Part shown: positions 4,786 through 9,527 of the stretch, one piece after another | Layout: each line of letters opens with the position of its first letter | Numbering within the stretch: position 1 is the first letter of the stretch | From: Christiangramia sediminis | Lineage (GTDB): Bacteria > Bacteroidota > Bacteroidia > Flavobacteriales > Flavobacteriaceae | Assembly (NCBI RefSeq): GCF_020552705.1 | Contig: NZ_JAJBZG010000001.1 | Coordinates: 62,001 to 126,000, forward strand | DNA length: 64,000 nucleotides | Direction: 5' to 3' | Made by a program: the position numbers and the translations under genes | Notes under the pieces: generated by a model | Told to the model about the DNA's origin: nothing | The model's database searches: none | Seen by the model: only the letters and a program-made list of their open reading frames with translations

Positions 4786-5766
4786 CTATAATAAATAGAC
4801 TTCTTTATTATGCCAATTTAAATATTCAATAGAAGGATACCATGATAATTTCTTTGGTAGAGAAATTTGTTTTCCTTCAAATTGGGATAAAGAGAAGGTA
4901 GAGTCATTTTCTGAAATAGAAGGAGATACCCTAACAATATAATCACTGTTTATGGTAATCAATCCGCGGTCAAAGGCACGATGAAGATTGGGGGAAAGTG
5001 CAATTCCATTGGGAATGGTGTCATCATTAGAAAGACTAAAGGGATATATATGACAAGCATCTATCATCTGCACACTGTGAGTAGAAGTGATTTTCATTCC
5101 CGAAATAGAACACGTGAAATCATAGATTTTGGGAACAGTTCTTTTAAAAAGCCCGCCCCGAACAAAAATTTCTTCTTCGAATTCGTCCTCTTCTAAGCGG
5201 TCTCTTAAACTGCGAATTTGATTTTGATAAACTTCTGTGGATTCATTTAAAATAGAATTTTCTATAAAGCTCTCTTCATATGTTTTCTCTTGATCTGAAT
5301 ATTCACTCTTAGTAGAAGGAAAGTATTGATCAAGAAGGTATTGTTCAAACAAAGTCTGAGAAATTGGATTTTGGAATATTAAAAATAATTCTCTGTCAAT
5401 TTCAGCGTAAGCTATATTTTCTTTTAAGGATTTAAAACTTTTTATACTCTTGGATTTCGTTAGAATAATCTTCTTTCCTGCCTTTGGAATGAGATACCAA
5501 AATGGTTCAGAATGCATATGGTAAAAAGGAAGAGAAAAGTTAGGGGAATGTGCCGAATCAACCAACTGCTTCCAATTTCTTTTAAACGCTAAAATTAAAT
5601 CTGCAGTTATAAAGATTTTATTAGAATCAATACTTCCACTTTTAACCAATTGAAGCACTGAAAGTAATAAGATGGGTTTATGGGGAGCACGACCGAGATT
5701 TTTAGTGTAGCCTCTGTTTAGCTTTTTAAAATAATTCAAATATTTCGCGATGGTTTCTTCTGTCAT
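4786..5766 (-). CDS. HNH endonuclease with N-terminal SBD-like domain
   Basis: Predicted DNA endonuclease, last gene of a three-gene operon. Residues about 1-130 resemble the sulfur-binding (SBD) domains of McrA-type restriction enzymes: APHKPILLLSVLQLVKSGSI followed by FYHMHSEPFWYLIP. Those domains read phosphorothioate-modified DNA, but whether this one does is not shown. Residues about 215-270 form the HNH nuclease: the zinc-side Cys219 and DACHIYPFSLSNDDTIPNGI with His239, Asn253 and His262 in LHRAFDRG. A Glu-rich linker (190-200) joins the halves. It starts 9 bases after the helicase gene ends. A type IV-like restriction role is inferred. Confidence 0.85.
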   Translation of the reverse strand: MTEETIAKYLNYFKKLNRGYTKNLGRAPHKPILLLSVLQLVKSGSIDSNKIFITADLILAFKRNWKQLVDSAHSPNFSLPFYHMHSEPFWYLIPKAGKKIILTKSKSIKSFKSLKENIAYAEIDRELFLIFQNPISQTLFEQYLLDQYFPSTKSEYSDQEKTYEESFIENSILNESTEVYQNQIRSLRDRLEEDEFEEEIFVRGGLFKRTVPKIYDFTCSISGMKITSTHSVQMIDACHIYPFSLSNDDTIPNGIALSPNLHRAFDRGLITINSDYIVRVSPSISENDSTFSLSQFEGKQISLPKKLSWYPSIEYLNWHNKEVYLL

Positions 5767-5775
5767 AGATTCTTC

Positions 5776-8700
5776 TTAACCAACCGCCAATTTTTGACTT
5801 TCCTTTAAAATATATGCAGGCATTGCTTCTTCTAATTTCCACTCTATATTCATAGGTTTTTCTCCGGAATGTTTCTGAAAAATAGCTTCTCCTAAAAATA
5901 CATAGCCCATAGTAAAACCATATTCATCTTTAGCCTGTTCTCTTACAAAAAGGAGCACGTTTTTTTTACTTTTTATATAGGCTTGTCCCTTAGGAGTATT
6001 GGGCGAAGCACTATTTTGTGTTTGCCAATGAAAAAGATTTTTATTCAGTGCATAATCTTCATACATAGTCGTAGGGGAGTAATCTTTGTCAGACTTTTTC
6101 AAGGTTACAAATAAAGCTTCAGTATTTATTGATTTTTCATAGGATGCACCTTCTCTACTTGGCTTAGCTTTTTTGAACTTATGCCTTCTGATAGCAACTA
6201 GAATTTGGTTACGGTTATATCTACTATGAATTTTTAGAGGAAATTCAAATCCAAGTTGGATGGGTTTTTCCACAAAATCTATTTCCTCCATTAATAGTTC
6301 TACTACTTCAAGAATTTCATCAATCATTCTTGGATTTTTAGAAATCTGGTGCAGACTTTCATTTAAGTTATTGAAATTACAATCAGGTCCTGATTTTTGC
6401 CATATATCGTAATGAAGCATTAGGGCCTTCAACCTTTCTATTTCAGAAAAATTCAAATTACTGAAGTTCGATTGACATAAGTTTTTGATGAACTTCAAAT
6501 AACTAACTGAATTACAACTTATCAATCTATTGCTAATAAAATTGGCAATCTCTTTTTCATTAGGTTCTGAAAATTCTTCAATTACTCCCGCTTCCGCACA
6601 TAATCTATTCCAACTTCCCTTCTTATAAATTTGTTGGAGTCTTAAGTGATGAAATTCAATAAAATTTGAAAGCGTAAGTGGTAATGAAGAATGATTTTTA
6701 AAGCTTTTAATTTTCTGAACTAGTTGAGGTCTTCTAAATTCAGTGGCTTCTTTAATATTTTTGAGGATTATTTCTTTAGCTTTTCTTTCTAAAACAATTG
6801 AACAGCCTAATGGTAAATGAGGAAATTCATCTTCAATTTCTTTAATTACAGAAGTATGAGTTTTTCCAATCAAAGCTCTGAATTTATGCTCAAAATCATA
6901 TTCAGGTCTAGCATTACCTACAAAATCAAGGACGGTAAGACAATCTTTATTTTCTGCGAGCCTTAGACCGCGACCTAATTGCTGAAGAAATATAGTTAAG
7001 CTCTCAGTAGGTCTGAGAAATAAAACCGTATCAATTTCTGGAATATCTACACCTTCGTTAAATATGTCAACCACAAATAGATAATTAATCTCCTTCTTGT
7101 ATAATTTATTTCTTAATTCATCCCTGTTAGAGCTATTTGAGCTTACTAAATAATCGGCTTTCAGTCCCACACGTGTAAAATTTTCAGCCATATATCTGGC
7201 GTGTTCCTGACTTACACAAAATCCTAGTGCTTGAACATCATTTACATCGGTTAGATATTCTTCGCAGTTTTTCAAAATATCTCCTAGTCGACGATCATCT
7301 TCAGTATATAATTTAGTTAGCTCATTAATATCATATTTTCCTTGTCTCCAGTTGACAGTTGTTAAATCAATAGAATCTGAAAGAGCAAAGTATTGAAAGG
7401 GAGAAAGTAATTTTCTATTTAAGGCTTCTGGAAGACGAATTTCGGCTGCAATCTTATTGTGAAAATCACCAGTGATATCTCCACCATCCATTCTTTCTGG
7501 TGTAGCGGTAAGACCTAATAAAATCTGAGGATTGAATCTTTTTAGAATTGGTCTATAACTCTCCGCTTTAATATGGTGAACCTCATCAACTATAATATAA
7601 TCGAAGAAATCATCACCGAGCTCTAGCTTTTTAAGTCTATTATTTAAGGTTTGAACTGAAGCAAATAGTTGATCATATTTTTGAGGTTCATAACCTCCTA
7701 CCCAAAGTTCTCCAAAGTTTGAATCGCGCAATACATGCTGAAAAGTTCTTTGCGCTTGTTCGAGTATTTCTTTACGATGTGCAACAAATAAAAATTTAGG
7801 ATTTGGATTAGAATTTTTAAAACGTTTAAAATCGAAAGCCGATATCACAGTTTTACCGGTTCCTGTTGCAGCTACCAATAAGTTTTTATTCCGATTATGA
7901 ATAATCCTTTCGGAATCAAGTTTGGAAAGAATTTCTTCCTGATAAGGATAAGGTTTAAGATCAAAAAAAGTAGTTATCAGATTTACTCCTTGATTGCTCT
8001 GCCTTTTTAAAGAAGCTATGAGTTTTTCTTGATCCTTTCCCTTTTCATAAAATTCGAATTCTGGGTCTAGCCAGTAAGTTTCAAAAGTTTTTTGAAATTT
8101 ATCTATAATGTGGCCAATTTCCTGGGTAGTAACTTTCAAGTTCCATTCAAGTCCGTTTGTCAAAGCAGACCGAGAAAGATTAGATGAACCAATATAACCA
8201 GTATGAAATCCTGAATTTCTTAAAAATAAATATGCCTTCGCATGTAATCGTTCGTGTTCAACATTATAAGAAACTTTAATTTCAGTATTGGGTAAGGAAG
8301 ATAAGTATTCTACAGCTTTGGCATCTGTAGCACCCATATAGGAAGTTGTGATAATTTTTAACTTCTTACCACTATTAGTAAATTCTTCTAATTCTTTTTT
8401 AAAAATTCGGATCCCAGAATATTTAATAAAAGAGACAAGCCAGCAAATTTCATCGGCAGAAAGGATTTCCTTTTTGATCTCACTTTCTAAAGAGATTCCA
8501 GTATTATTCCCTGTAAATAATTCACTTTGACTAAGACGCGTATACGGTGTTATTTCTTTTAGACGATCTTTTAAATTTGAATATGGAAAGTTAGATTTAG
8601 AAAAAACAGCTTCAAGTATTCTGCCTTCGTTTTCAATTAAGTTGTCTGCTAAATCTATGTTTTTAAGTTCCTCAGCTAATAATTTAATAATCTTATTAGA

Positions 8701-8913
8701 GATTTCGATTTGTCTTAATGGCCTGTCCTTTTCTTTGATTTCATTCAAAGCAAATCGGATTGTTTCTGATAAATACAGACTTAAATATTGTGACGCCTCC
8801 TCTTTATCTAAAAGTGTTTCGCTAATGTGGAATTTTTGACAGTCAAGTGTATCTAATTTATTAGATACCAATTTATTTATTAGCTGTTCGTAAAGTCCGG
8901 TTTCAAAACTCAT
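5776..8913 (-). CDS. PLD-family nuclease / SF2 helicase / DUF3427 protein
   Basis: A 1045-residue multidomain DNA enzyme. An N-terminal segment (1-140) of unknown fold is followed by a phospholipase D-type nuclease (about 145-290) with one HKD motif: His224 and Lys226 in RLHAKAYLF, then GYIGSSNLSRSA. One motif implies dimerisation for activity. The SF2 helicase (about 320-690) has motif I AATGTGKT (348-355), motif II DEVH (443-446), motif III LTATPERM and motif VI QQLGRGLR. The C-terminus is DUF3427 (SPTTMYEDYALNKNLFHWQ, then VLLFVRE). The start codon overlaps the Nudix gene stop (ATGA), and the HNH gene follows after 9 bases. Proteins of this build recur in bacterial defence loci; the exact mechanism is unknown to me. 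Confidence 0.9.
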   Translation of the reverse strand: MSFETGLYEQLINKLVSNKLDTLDCQKFHISETLLDKEEASQYLSLYLSETIRFALNEIKEKDRPLRQIEISNKIIKLLAEELKNIDLADNLIENEGRILEAVFSKSNFPYSNLKDRLKEITPYTRLSQSELFTGNNTGISLESEIKKEILSADEICWLVSFIKYSGIRIFKKELEEFTNSGKKLKIITTSYMGATDAKAVEYLSSLPNTEIKVSYNVEHERLHAKAYLFLRNSGFHTGYIGSSNLSRSALTNGLEWNLKVTTQEIGHIIDKFQKTFETYWLDPEFEFYEKGKDQEKLIASLKRQSNQGVNLITTFFDLKPYPYQEEILSKLDSERIIHNRNKNLLVAATGTGKTVISAFDFKRFKNSNPNPKFLFVAHRKEILEQAQRTFQHVLRDSNFGELWVGGYEPQKYDQLFASVQTLNNRLKKLELGDDFFDYIIVDEVHHIKAESYRPILKRFNPQILLGLTATPERMDGGDITGDFHNKIAAEIRLPEALNRKLLSPFQYFALSDSIDLTTVNWRQGKYDINELTKLYTEDDRRLGDILKNCEEYLTDVNDVQALGFCVSQEHARYMAENFTRVGLKADYLVSSNSSNRDELRNKLYKKEINYLFVVDIFNEGVDIPEIDTVLFLRPTESLTIFLQQLGRGLRLAENKDCLTVLDFVGNARPEYDFEHKFRALIGKTHTSVIKEIEDEFPHLPLGCSIVLERKAKEIILKNIKEATEFRRPQLVQKIKSFKNHSSLPLTLSNFIEFHHLRLQQIYKKGSWNRLCAEAGVIEEFSEPNEKEIANFISNRLISCNSVSYLKFIKNLCQSNFSNLNFSEIERLKALMLHYDIWQKSGPDCNFNNLNESLHQISKNPRMIDEILEVVELLMEEIDFVEKPIQLGFEFPLKIHSRYNRNQILVAIRRHKFKKAKPSREGASYEKSINTEALFVTLKKSDKDYSPTTMYEDYALNKNLFHWQTQNSASPNTPKGQAYIKSKKNVLLFVREQAKDEYGFTMGYVFLGEAIFQKHSGEKPMNIEWKLEEAMPAYILKESQKLAVG

Positions 8914-9299
8914 TTAAAATTCTGTATATAATGTTGAACAATTGGTATATCTGCTTCAGCCCAGTCAAAATTTTCTAATTGCCAAATAGCAGCCCATTCT
9001 ATTTTAGAATGTTCTTTTAAATCGATTTCTGAGGTTTGTAGGGAACAGCGAAATGGGATAAGTTTAATAATCTTATTTTCTGAATATTTATGTGTGTTTG
9101 ATGGAAGTCGTTCTAAGATTGTTATTTCTAATCCTAGCTCTTCTTTAATTTCTCGTTTAAGACAATCTTCGAGTGTTTCTCCATTCTCCAGTTTCCCTCC
9201 TGGGAACTCCCACTTCAAAGGAAGCTTCATTTCTGCACTGCGTTGGGCGCATAAAATTCGATCATTATCTTCTATTAATGCACAGGTAACTTGAATCAA
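8910..9299 (-). CDS. Nudix hydrolase, MutT-like (deoxy)nucleoside triphosphatase
   Basis: Hydrolyses nucleoside diphosphates linked to another moiety; the MutT subgroup cleans 8-oxo-dGTP from the nucleotide pool. In 129 residues the Nudix box is perfect: Gly35, Glu41, Arg49-Glu50, Glu53-Glu54 and Gly56 in the pattern Gx5Ex7REUxEExGU. The start VTCALIEDNDRILCAQR and KWEFPGGK are MutT-like. It is the first gene of the operon, with a 4-base overlap (ATGA) into the helicase gene, so it is probably translated with it. Here it more likely acts on a nucleotide made or spent by the nuclease-helicase system than as the housekeeping MutT; this is inference. Confidence 0.93.
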   Translation of the reverse strand: MIQVTCALIEDNDRILCAQRSAEMKLPLKWEFPGGKLENGETLEDCLKREIKEELGLEITILERLPSNTHKYSENKIIKLIPFRCSLQTSEIDLKEHSKIEWAAIWQLENFDWAEADIPIVQHYIQNFK

Positions 9300-9527
9300 C
9301 CGACTTTAAATTATTGTTCAAATTAAAAATACATGTTTAATTGTATAATCTCTTTTTAATTGAAATTACTTTTTAACGTTTTATCCATACACTTCAACAA
9401 AATCATGAATATTAATAAGTATATTTTCTTAGCTTTTAAATCTGATTTTCAGGCTAGGCATTCCGGCTTACTAATTTTTCCAGAACAGCAATAAAACCAC
9501 CTAGCAAACTAAGCATTTAAAATAAAA

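Follow-up and report, generated by a model that had tools for sequence, protein, structure and literature searches.

Near the beginning of the stretch of DNA studied here (64,000 nucleotides of Christiangramia sediminis, assembly GCF_020552705.1, contig NZ_JAJBZG010000001.1, positions 62,001 to 126,000; hereafter "the window") lies a compact operon that encodes a Nudix hydrolase, a large protein joining a PLD nuclease to an SF2 helicase and a DUF3427 domain, and an HNH endonuclease. From the comparison of these sequences with known enzymes we propose, at what we would call just short of an even chance, that this is a type IV restriction cassette equipped with a guard of the nucleotide pool: the large nuclease would cut DNA carrying 5-methylcytosine (m5C) or 5-hydroxymethylcytosine (hm5C), and the Nudix enzyme would destroy the corresponding modified dCTP. 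Both kinds of nuclease in the operon are known; the logic of the combination (destruction of the mark in DNA and of its precursor in the pool) we did not find stated in the literature searched. If true, it would explain why the mark released when a cell degrades methylated DNA is not recycled into the genome of that cell, and it would give a function to the phage defence candidate PDC-S07, the class of the Nudix enzyme.

The original prediction had described a leftward unit of three genes, with a 4-base ATGA overlap and a 9-base gap, and these coordinates proved exact. All three genes lie on the minus strand: the Nudix gene (8910-9299; 129 amino acids (aa), TTG start) comes first and shares the ATGA at 8910-8913, which contains its stop and the start of the next gene, with the gene of the large nuclease (5776-8913; 1045 aa); a spacer of nine bases (5767-5775) then separates the latter from the HNH gene (4786-5766; 326 aa). 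The overlap probably reflects translational coupling, and the stretch just upstream (9300-9378), which is kept in five congeners (L056-L060) whose homology to the window starts at 9377-9378, is probably the edge of the cassette together with its 5' control region. Pfam recognises the expected domains throughout (E-values: Nudix 3.7e-19, PLDc_2 2.4e-12, ResIII 4.6e-42, Helicase_C 5.1e-11, DUF3427 4.7e-25 and HNH_2 2.3e-11).

The large protein can be taken, by homology and by conservation of the alignable part of the base-reading pocket, as a type IV restriction enzyme of the SauUSI type. PADLOC calls it mREase_IV (type IV methyl-directed restriction enzyme) with 742 bits, and its residues 136-1012 align with the crystal structure of SauUSI (7clg) at 3.1e-80. 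As in SauUSI, a PLD nuclease, an SF2 motor, a coupler and an SRA-like target recognition domain follow each other in a single chain: the PLD domain occupies residues 147-281 (8071-8475), the helicase/translocase motor residues ~319-669 (6907-7959; Walker A K354, DEVHH at 443-447), and DUF3427 residues 788-1036 (5806-6552), the end of which corresponds in the alignment to the domain with SRA fold by which SauUSI reads m5C. In SauUSI this domain reads Sm5CNGS, ATP drives translocation and a dimeric PLD nuclease makes the cut (PMC7913695), and m5C and hm5C DNA is cut, not m4C DNA (PMC3874153); the motor uses ATP or dATP. Residues were counted in 88 of the 101 nuclease loci described below (six loci with short upstream sequence, the distant L033-L036, and L112, L143 and L148 were excluded). 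The HxK pair of the PLD domain (H224 and K226), SSN at 243-245 and E256 are invariant in all 88, and those motor motifs that were checked vary little or not at all. The residues singled out by the original prediction fared equally well, H224 and K354 being present in 13/13 nucleases and again in 88/88, and H239 of the HNH protein in 19/19 proteins of its kind. Counting along the pairwise alignment, D858 and W868 of SauUSI, which contact the base (PMC7913695), correspond to D953 and W963 of the window protein, both invariant (88/88), and F841/I842 to F935 (85/88) and V936 (I or V in all 88). No counterpart could be aligned for Y831, which contacts the methyl group; it and M829 fall at or beside a gap. 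There are two other differences from SauUSI: the window protein is longer before the PLD domain (the alignment starts at residue 136 here and at 34 in SauUSI), and the acidic residue of the motif given for SauUSI as 119-HxKx4E-126 (PMC7913695) is not conserved, E126 being replaced by leucine at position 231. The predicted structure of the nuclease is poor (mean pLDDT 62, pTM 0.39), and the identity of the protein rests instead on the sequence match to 7clg.

Two other identities were considered and not adopted for this protein: a RadD-like repair helicase (112 of 720 bits to RadD, vs 742 bits to mREase_IV) and the PADLOC family PbeA (113 bits over the motor part, 2.8e-33, far under mREase_IV). 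The original prediction, which knew of no named system with this set of genes, was right to see a defence or restriction module with two unrelated nucleases (one of the SauUSI type, one of the SBD-HNH family, in which SBD stands for sulfur-binding domain). It missed that both have names: the PLD-helicase-DUF3427 protein is of the SauUSI-type type IV family, and the HNH gene probably falls in the known class of phosphorothioate-dependent SBD-HNH enzymes.

NudG is a chromosomal housekeeping gene, and PDC-S07 is a label that we take to denote a single-gene candidate without mechanism. The Nudix enzyme of the window matches PDC-S07 at 1.9e-48, and differs from it in that it partners a type IV enzyme. 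It possesses a complete Nudix box and an aspartate, D117, within an ADIP motif; the GGK of the box and D117 are found in all 72 cassette Nudix proteins counted below. Among characterised enzymes it is closest to nucleoside-triphosphate pyrophosphatases of the NudG/MutT type, and by score it lies nearer to E. coli NudG (Orf135), a 5-methyl-dCTP pyrophosphatase, than to MutT (NCBIfam: 90.8 bits for NudG, 76.9 for MutT and 92.9 for the general Nudix model PRK08999, all below cut-off). The structure of E. coli NudG (2rrk) matches residues 1-124 with 61 bits, and both proteins have the ADIP motif. Several relatives likewise score higher to NudG than to MutT (NudG/MutT bits: 100.9/74.8 for the Staphylococcus aureus Nudix, 101.1/80.5 for L031, 83.4/79.7 for L034 and 106.5/101.1 for L187). 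The suggestion of the original prediction that the Nudix enzyme might act on a modified nucleotide is plausible, and modified dCTP is a candidate substrate. In one study, 5-methyl-dCTP is incorporated like dCTP by the polymerase assayed and may derive mainly from degraded methylated DNA (PMC10742078); in human cells, another reports, a MazG-type dCTP pyrophosphatase lowers both 5-methyl-dCTP and global methylation (PMC4491611).

The cassette might work as follows. The SRA-like C-terminal DUF3427 of the 1045-aa protein would read m5C or hm5C in incoming DNA, after which the SF2 motor would translocate and the PLD nuclease would cut, as in SauUSI, to judge from homology and the conserved pocket. 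The NudG-like pyrophosphatase would hydrolyse 5-methyl-dCTP, perhaps also 5-hydroxymethyl-dCTP, arising either from the breakdown of methylated invader DNA or from phages with modified cytosine. The host chromosome would in this way stay free of modified cytosine and so escape attack by the nuclease of the same cell, and the enzyme would presumably deny phages their modified precursor as well. The SBD-HNH protein, given its SBD match, would be an optional second nuclease adding phosphorothioate-marked DNA to the targets. One may object that Nudix substrates are diverse and that SauUSI is ATP-driven (PMC3874153), so that the Nudix enzyme might hydrolyse a nucleotide signal or by-product regulating the ATP/dATP-using motor, rather than modified dCTP. 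We give this very little credit, since the cassette contains no signal synthase and the characterised enzymes nearest to the Nudix protein, those of the NudG/MutT type, are nucleoside-triphosphate pyrophosphatases.

The pairing itself is a matter of observation. Among 199 genomes of the family (one per genus), 18 contain the nuclease at 1e-60 or better (14 orthologues with 54-100 percent identity, one of them cut by a contig end, and four distant relatives); of 17 that could be judged, 14 have a Nudix gene immediately upstream, and the window genome alone has an SBD-HNH gene directly downstream. Within the genus Christiangramia the nuclease is present in 7/24 genomes. Family and genus loci form, together with the best 80 of 537 relatives from named Bacteroidota, a set of 101 distinct loci, the duplicates L037, L098, L082 and L108 having been removed before counting. 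Once six loci with fewer than 600 bases upstream are set aside (L032, L090, L107, L125, L133 and L135), the Nudix gene is directly upstream of the nuclease at 72 of the 95 evaluable close loci, with the exact 4-base overlap at 47 of the 72. This arrangement is not due to chance. Nudix and nuclease distances are correlated (Spearman 0.54 over 68 loci, with 0/1000 permutations as high), a value to which shared ancestry contributes, and on the nuclease tree (FastTree) Nudix presence changes at least 14 times, Nudix type at least 18 times and HNH presence at least five times; a second Nudix subtype is found at four core rows that do not form one clade. At one locus without the Nudix gene (L131), a 219-aa protein with the look, by eye, of a RdgB/HAM1-type pyrophosphatase is encoded 46 bp upstream of the nuclease.

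The same pair occurs on plasmids. Of 20 plasmid records that contain the nuclease, eight were examined, and in five of these the Nudix gene is adjacent (S. aureus, Lactiplantibacillus plantarum, Limosilactobacillus fermentum, Latilactobacillus curvatus and Hymenobacter canadensis); it was not found at the nuclease in the other three of these eight (Pseudoalteromonas, Peptoclostridium and Hymenobacter swuensis). The S. aureus record concerns SauUSI itself: the Nudix gene (L149:7499-7900) stops one base upstream of SauUSI, the frame of which is split in this record, its first piece being identical to 7clg over 655 residues. This Nudix protein is identical (130/130) to PDB 5x1x, deposited as Mutator mutT protein. 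SauUSI has been described as a lone active polypeptide with no partner, and here a putative nucleotide-cleaning partner is seen in two phyla. The adjacency appears once in the literature searched, in a figure legend stating that the small proteins beside SauUSI homologues of Streptococcus are MutT homologues (PMC7641849); in that literature we found no functional reading of it, and the main text of the SauUSI structure paper contains no mention of Nudix, pyrophosphohydrolase or mutT (PMC7913695).

The strongest hint that the Nudix enzyme may clean modified dCTP comes, we think, from the company kept by its class. Of 21 plasmid records with a Nudix gene of this class, 13 were examined (those other than H7, H9, H11, H13, H14, H15, H19 and H21): five beside a SauUSI-type gene, three overlapping an HNH gene, two beside a divergent HNH gene, and one each fused to HNH, beside an Eco57I-type methylase gene and in a housekeeping region. 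The three overlaps, by 4 bp, are on Priestia plasmids, and the one HNH protein scanned matches the nuclease domain of EcoKMcrA (6ghc, 7.4e-21) with residues 157-266 of 274, and also matches mREase_IV. In Paenibacillus polymyxa, HNH and Nudix form a single protein of 487 aa (L158:2921-4384), with the Nudix part starting at about residue 360 and residues 271-368 matching the EcoKMcrA nuclease domain (6ghc, 9.8e-23). A scan of viral contigs with this fusion found one relative of 490 aa (L192:3986-5458), and Niallia taxi encodes a third fusion (494 aa, L193:2983-4467), the Nudix half of which, in our reading, is without catalytic motif and Asp; its gene overlaps the next open reading frame, of 592 aa and helicase-like by eye. 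These HNH enzymes share the Nudix class with the window cassette, joined to them by a 4-bp overlap or by fusion, and differ from it in having an unrelated nuclease and no translocase.

PDC-S07 has 26 strong matches in the 199 genomes of the family. Fourteen stand beside a SauUSI-type gene; five adjoin, lie close to or are fused with helicases of the Schlafen group (L225, L226, L230 and L231 by hidden Markov model (HMM), L227 by eye); one each is beside or near an AAA + DUF2357/PD-DExK module, an HpaII restriction-modification system and an HNH gene; and for four (L224, L232, L234 and L235) no defence gene was recognised among the listed neighbours, which were not scanned with HMMs. Altogether, 22/26 have a defence nuclease or helicase next to them or no more than two genes away, one of these cases being read by eye. 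One may go further and regard PDC-S07-class Nudix enzymes as general tolerance factors of modification-dependent immunity, that is, modified-dNTP pyrophosphatases that bar a mark read as foreign from the host chromosome and that have been repeatedly recruited, by overlap or fusion, to SauUSI-type enzymes, to HNH enzymes with a McrA-like domain and perhaps to McrBC-like enzymes. This wider idea is more speculative than our proposal for the window, and about one chance in three is what we would grant it.

The Schlafen-group neighbours deserve a few details. The helicases are of Schlafen group 3 (L231:3025-5397, L225:5431-7398, L226:4238-7197 and L230:5803-7932; PADLOC PDC-S41 in L225, L226 and L230); in L231 the Nudix domain is fused to the helicase, and in L226 a PLD protein is also part of one overlapping operon. 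In L229 (863-5400) the genes after the Nudix gene encode an AAA protein (PDC-M26A) and a DUF2357/PD-DExK protein, and the arrangement recalls McrBC to us. Such associations, at the loci with Schlafen-group helicases (PDC-S41; L225, L226, L230 and the fusion L231) and at L229, come without a type IV nuclease, and would agree with another view, in which the Nudix enzyme is itself the antiphage effector: it would destroy hydroxymethyl-dCTP or dCTP upon infection and starve phage replication, the nuclease being an independent second layer. The listing of PDC-S07 by PADLOC as a defence candidate in its own right speaks for this, as does the MazG-like pyrophosphatase gene that follows the SauUSI-type gene in two lactobacilli (L150:6808-7128 and L151:6831-7142). 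However, gene order and overlap tie the Nudix gene to the nuclease at most close loci, the fusion to a McrA-like nuclease domain suggests a common target chemistry, and no infection-sensing part is seen in the cassette. We consider the effector view possible, though doubtful.

Several observations weigh against a nucleotide guard paired with a type IV nuclease, and should be acknowledged. SauUSI is active as a single polypeptide (PMC3874153). Nudix is absent at 23/95 close loci, and beside only 8 of 27 fetched loci of the phylum sample (with flanks, some of them truncated, no longer than 1.5 kb). The nuclease can therefore dispense with it, and the pairing is common near the clade of the window and not universal. 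Conversely, 12 of the 26 strong PDC-S07 copies are not beside a SauUSI-type gene, and one is near an HpaII endonuclease and its m5C methyltransferase (L228:2365-5422), a system that itself makes m5C. The likeness of the HNH partners to EcoKMcrA concerns the nuclease domain only (residues 157-266 of 274 and 271-368 of 487). As to the enzyme class, the window Nudix is under both the NudG cut-off (90.8 of 156 bits), an equivalog threshold that sets it apart from E. coli NudG, and the MutT cut-off (76.9 of 97.9); all scored Nudix proteins are under the former, that of L150 (Lactiplantibacillus) is slightly nearer to MutT (74.1 for NudG, 76.4 for MutT), and that of L187 (Priestia) exceeds the MutT cut-off. 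D117 was once considered as proof of pyrimidine specificity and was dropped as not diagnostic: it occurs in 25/25 further Nudix proteins of the class, five of them with no recognised defence gene alongside, and neither this Asp nor the Nudix box separates a dCTP cleaner from other members.

These scores leave room for a more banal interpretation, in which the Nudix enzyme does no more than clear oxidised nucleotides, as MutT does, and rides by chance in mobile restriction cassettes. The closeness of the MutT and NudG scores, the Priestia copy, the name under which 5x1x was deposited and the class members in housekeeping or unrecognised surroundings (Sinorhizobium; L224, L232, L234 and L235) would all fit. 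Chance passengers would not be expected in the 22/26 neighbourhoods described above, nor would they be expected to be recruited repeatedly with overlap or, as in three records, fused with an HNH domain, and we regard this interpretation as unlikely.

A further test of the proposed pairing of nuclease and guard concerns the host. If the nuclease forbids m5C in its own cell, m5C methyltransferases should be rare in genomes that carry it. They are found, in the family sample (E up to 0.001), in 1/14 orthologue genomes vs 88/185 others (one-sided p=0.0023). Yet the phylum sample (E up to 1e-10) contains no deficit (18/43 nuclease-bearing genomes vs 156/342, p=0.38), and a weak one in its core (orthologues 3/12, p=0.13; new core 3/9). 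The N6-methylase control is also weak because nearly every genome has such an enzyme (14/14 orthologue genomes, but 170/199 overall). Pooling the core gives 4/23 (binomial p=0.0055), a comparison formed after both samples had been seen and on which we do not rely. Context-limited specificity of the nuclease could be the reason why it coexists with m5C methyltransferases.

The third gene is best described, on profile and structure matches, as encoding a probable phosphorothioate-dependent SBD-HNH endonuclease, with an SBD at residues 8-153 (5308-5745) and an HNH_2 nuclease domain, containing H239, at residues 219-273 (4948-5112). The original prediction had noticed that the N-terminus resembles sulfur-binding domains, and this is borne out: the protein aligns with SBDHga1 (8h0l, titled as the sulfur binding domain of Hga complexed with phosphorothioated DNA) at 1.3e-18, and its AlphaFold model (mean pLDDT 89.8) retrieves the same structure by Foldseek (8.3e-10, TM 0.86 by target), with the SBDs of SprMcrA and ScoMcrA as lower matches. 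The order of SBD and HNH, the fold match to SBDHga with phosphorothioate (PT) DNA and to SBDSpr, and the HK and PF motifs are those of EcoWI, SprMcrA and Hga. The HK of the sulfur pocket is present in 19/19 SBD-HNH proteins, and all 19 have, in our reading, LP at the presumed YP site; the window protein in this way differs from SprMcrA (Leu-Pro vs Tyr-Pro), and SBDHga1, the structure of which holds PT-DNA, has LP too. It also differs from these enzymes in remaining under the cut-off of NCBIfam NF045808 (99.7 of 180 bits), and in being the third gene of a SauUSI-type cassette.

SBD-HNH is an optional add-on and the pair of Nudix and nuclease is the core, because the homology of congeners stops at the end of the nuclease gene and few loci carry the HNH gene. 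Three congeners with Nudix and without HNH match the window from 9377-9378 to 5769-5776 and no further, and in two congeners with HNH the homology continues to 4797. SBD-HNH is directly downstream of the nuclease at 10/101 loci (the window, two congeners, Salinimicrobium, three Salegentibacter, two metagenome-assembled genomes (MAGs) of Draconibacterium and one Bacteroidia MAG), and not so at 91, of which 80 are followed by 1 kb or more of sequence; L095 (HNH without SBD) and L144, L147 and L164 (SBD-HNH upstream or on the opposite strand) were not counted as carriers. All three genes were found together in seven genomes of three genera (that of the window, G215, G210, Salinimicrobium and three Salegentibacter). 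The idea of a conserved trio, as originally predicted, is thus half correct: it is the Nudix/SauUSI-type pair that recurs, not the whole set. A deficit of m5C methyltransferases is not clear in SBD-HNH genomes (2/8, p=0.22). The gene dndC was not found in the genome of the window; it is present in two of the ten genomes with nuclease and SBD-HNH (L194 and L195), a possible self-restriction conflict.

The DISARM set consists of the DrmA helicase, DrmB, the PLD protein DrmC and a methylase. The original prediction compared the operon with DISARM, and a PLD domain and a helicase do occur in both; however, no DISARM set was detected among eight genes scanned with Pfam and three with PADLOC, and the match to DrmC is only 2.4e-07, through the common PLD fold. 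Membership in DISARM was rejected on these grounds. That the three proteins might still form one cooperative, DISARM-like complex of two nucleases, a helicase and a Nudix enzyme would agree with the tight operon of the window and with the persistence of the trio in its seven genomes. Besides the missing DISARM set, such a complex is hard to reconcile with the 91/101 loci lacking SBD-HNH directly downstream, with the three congeners that lose homology at the end of the nuclease gene, and with the fact that SBD-HNH lives alone elsewhere (7/8 strong homologues in the 199 genomes are not beside the nuclease); we find it most improbable.

A few other genes lie near the cassette. A Y-family polymerase-like gene, recognised by eye, is at 1-657 of the window, and four of six congeners (L056, L057, L058 and L060) have such a gene immediately upstream of their cassette. 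It is followed by a gene for an SOS response associated peptidase (SRAP) at 717-1448 and, at 1490-2166, a few kb from the cassette, by a HigB-type toxin gene with a probable helix-turn-helix (HTH) antitoxin gene (HTH_3 below cut-off).

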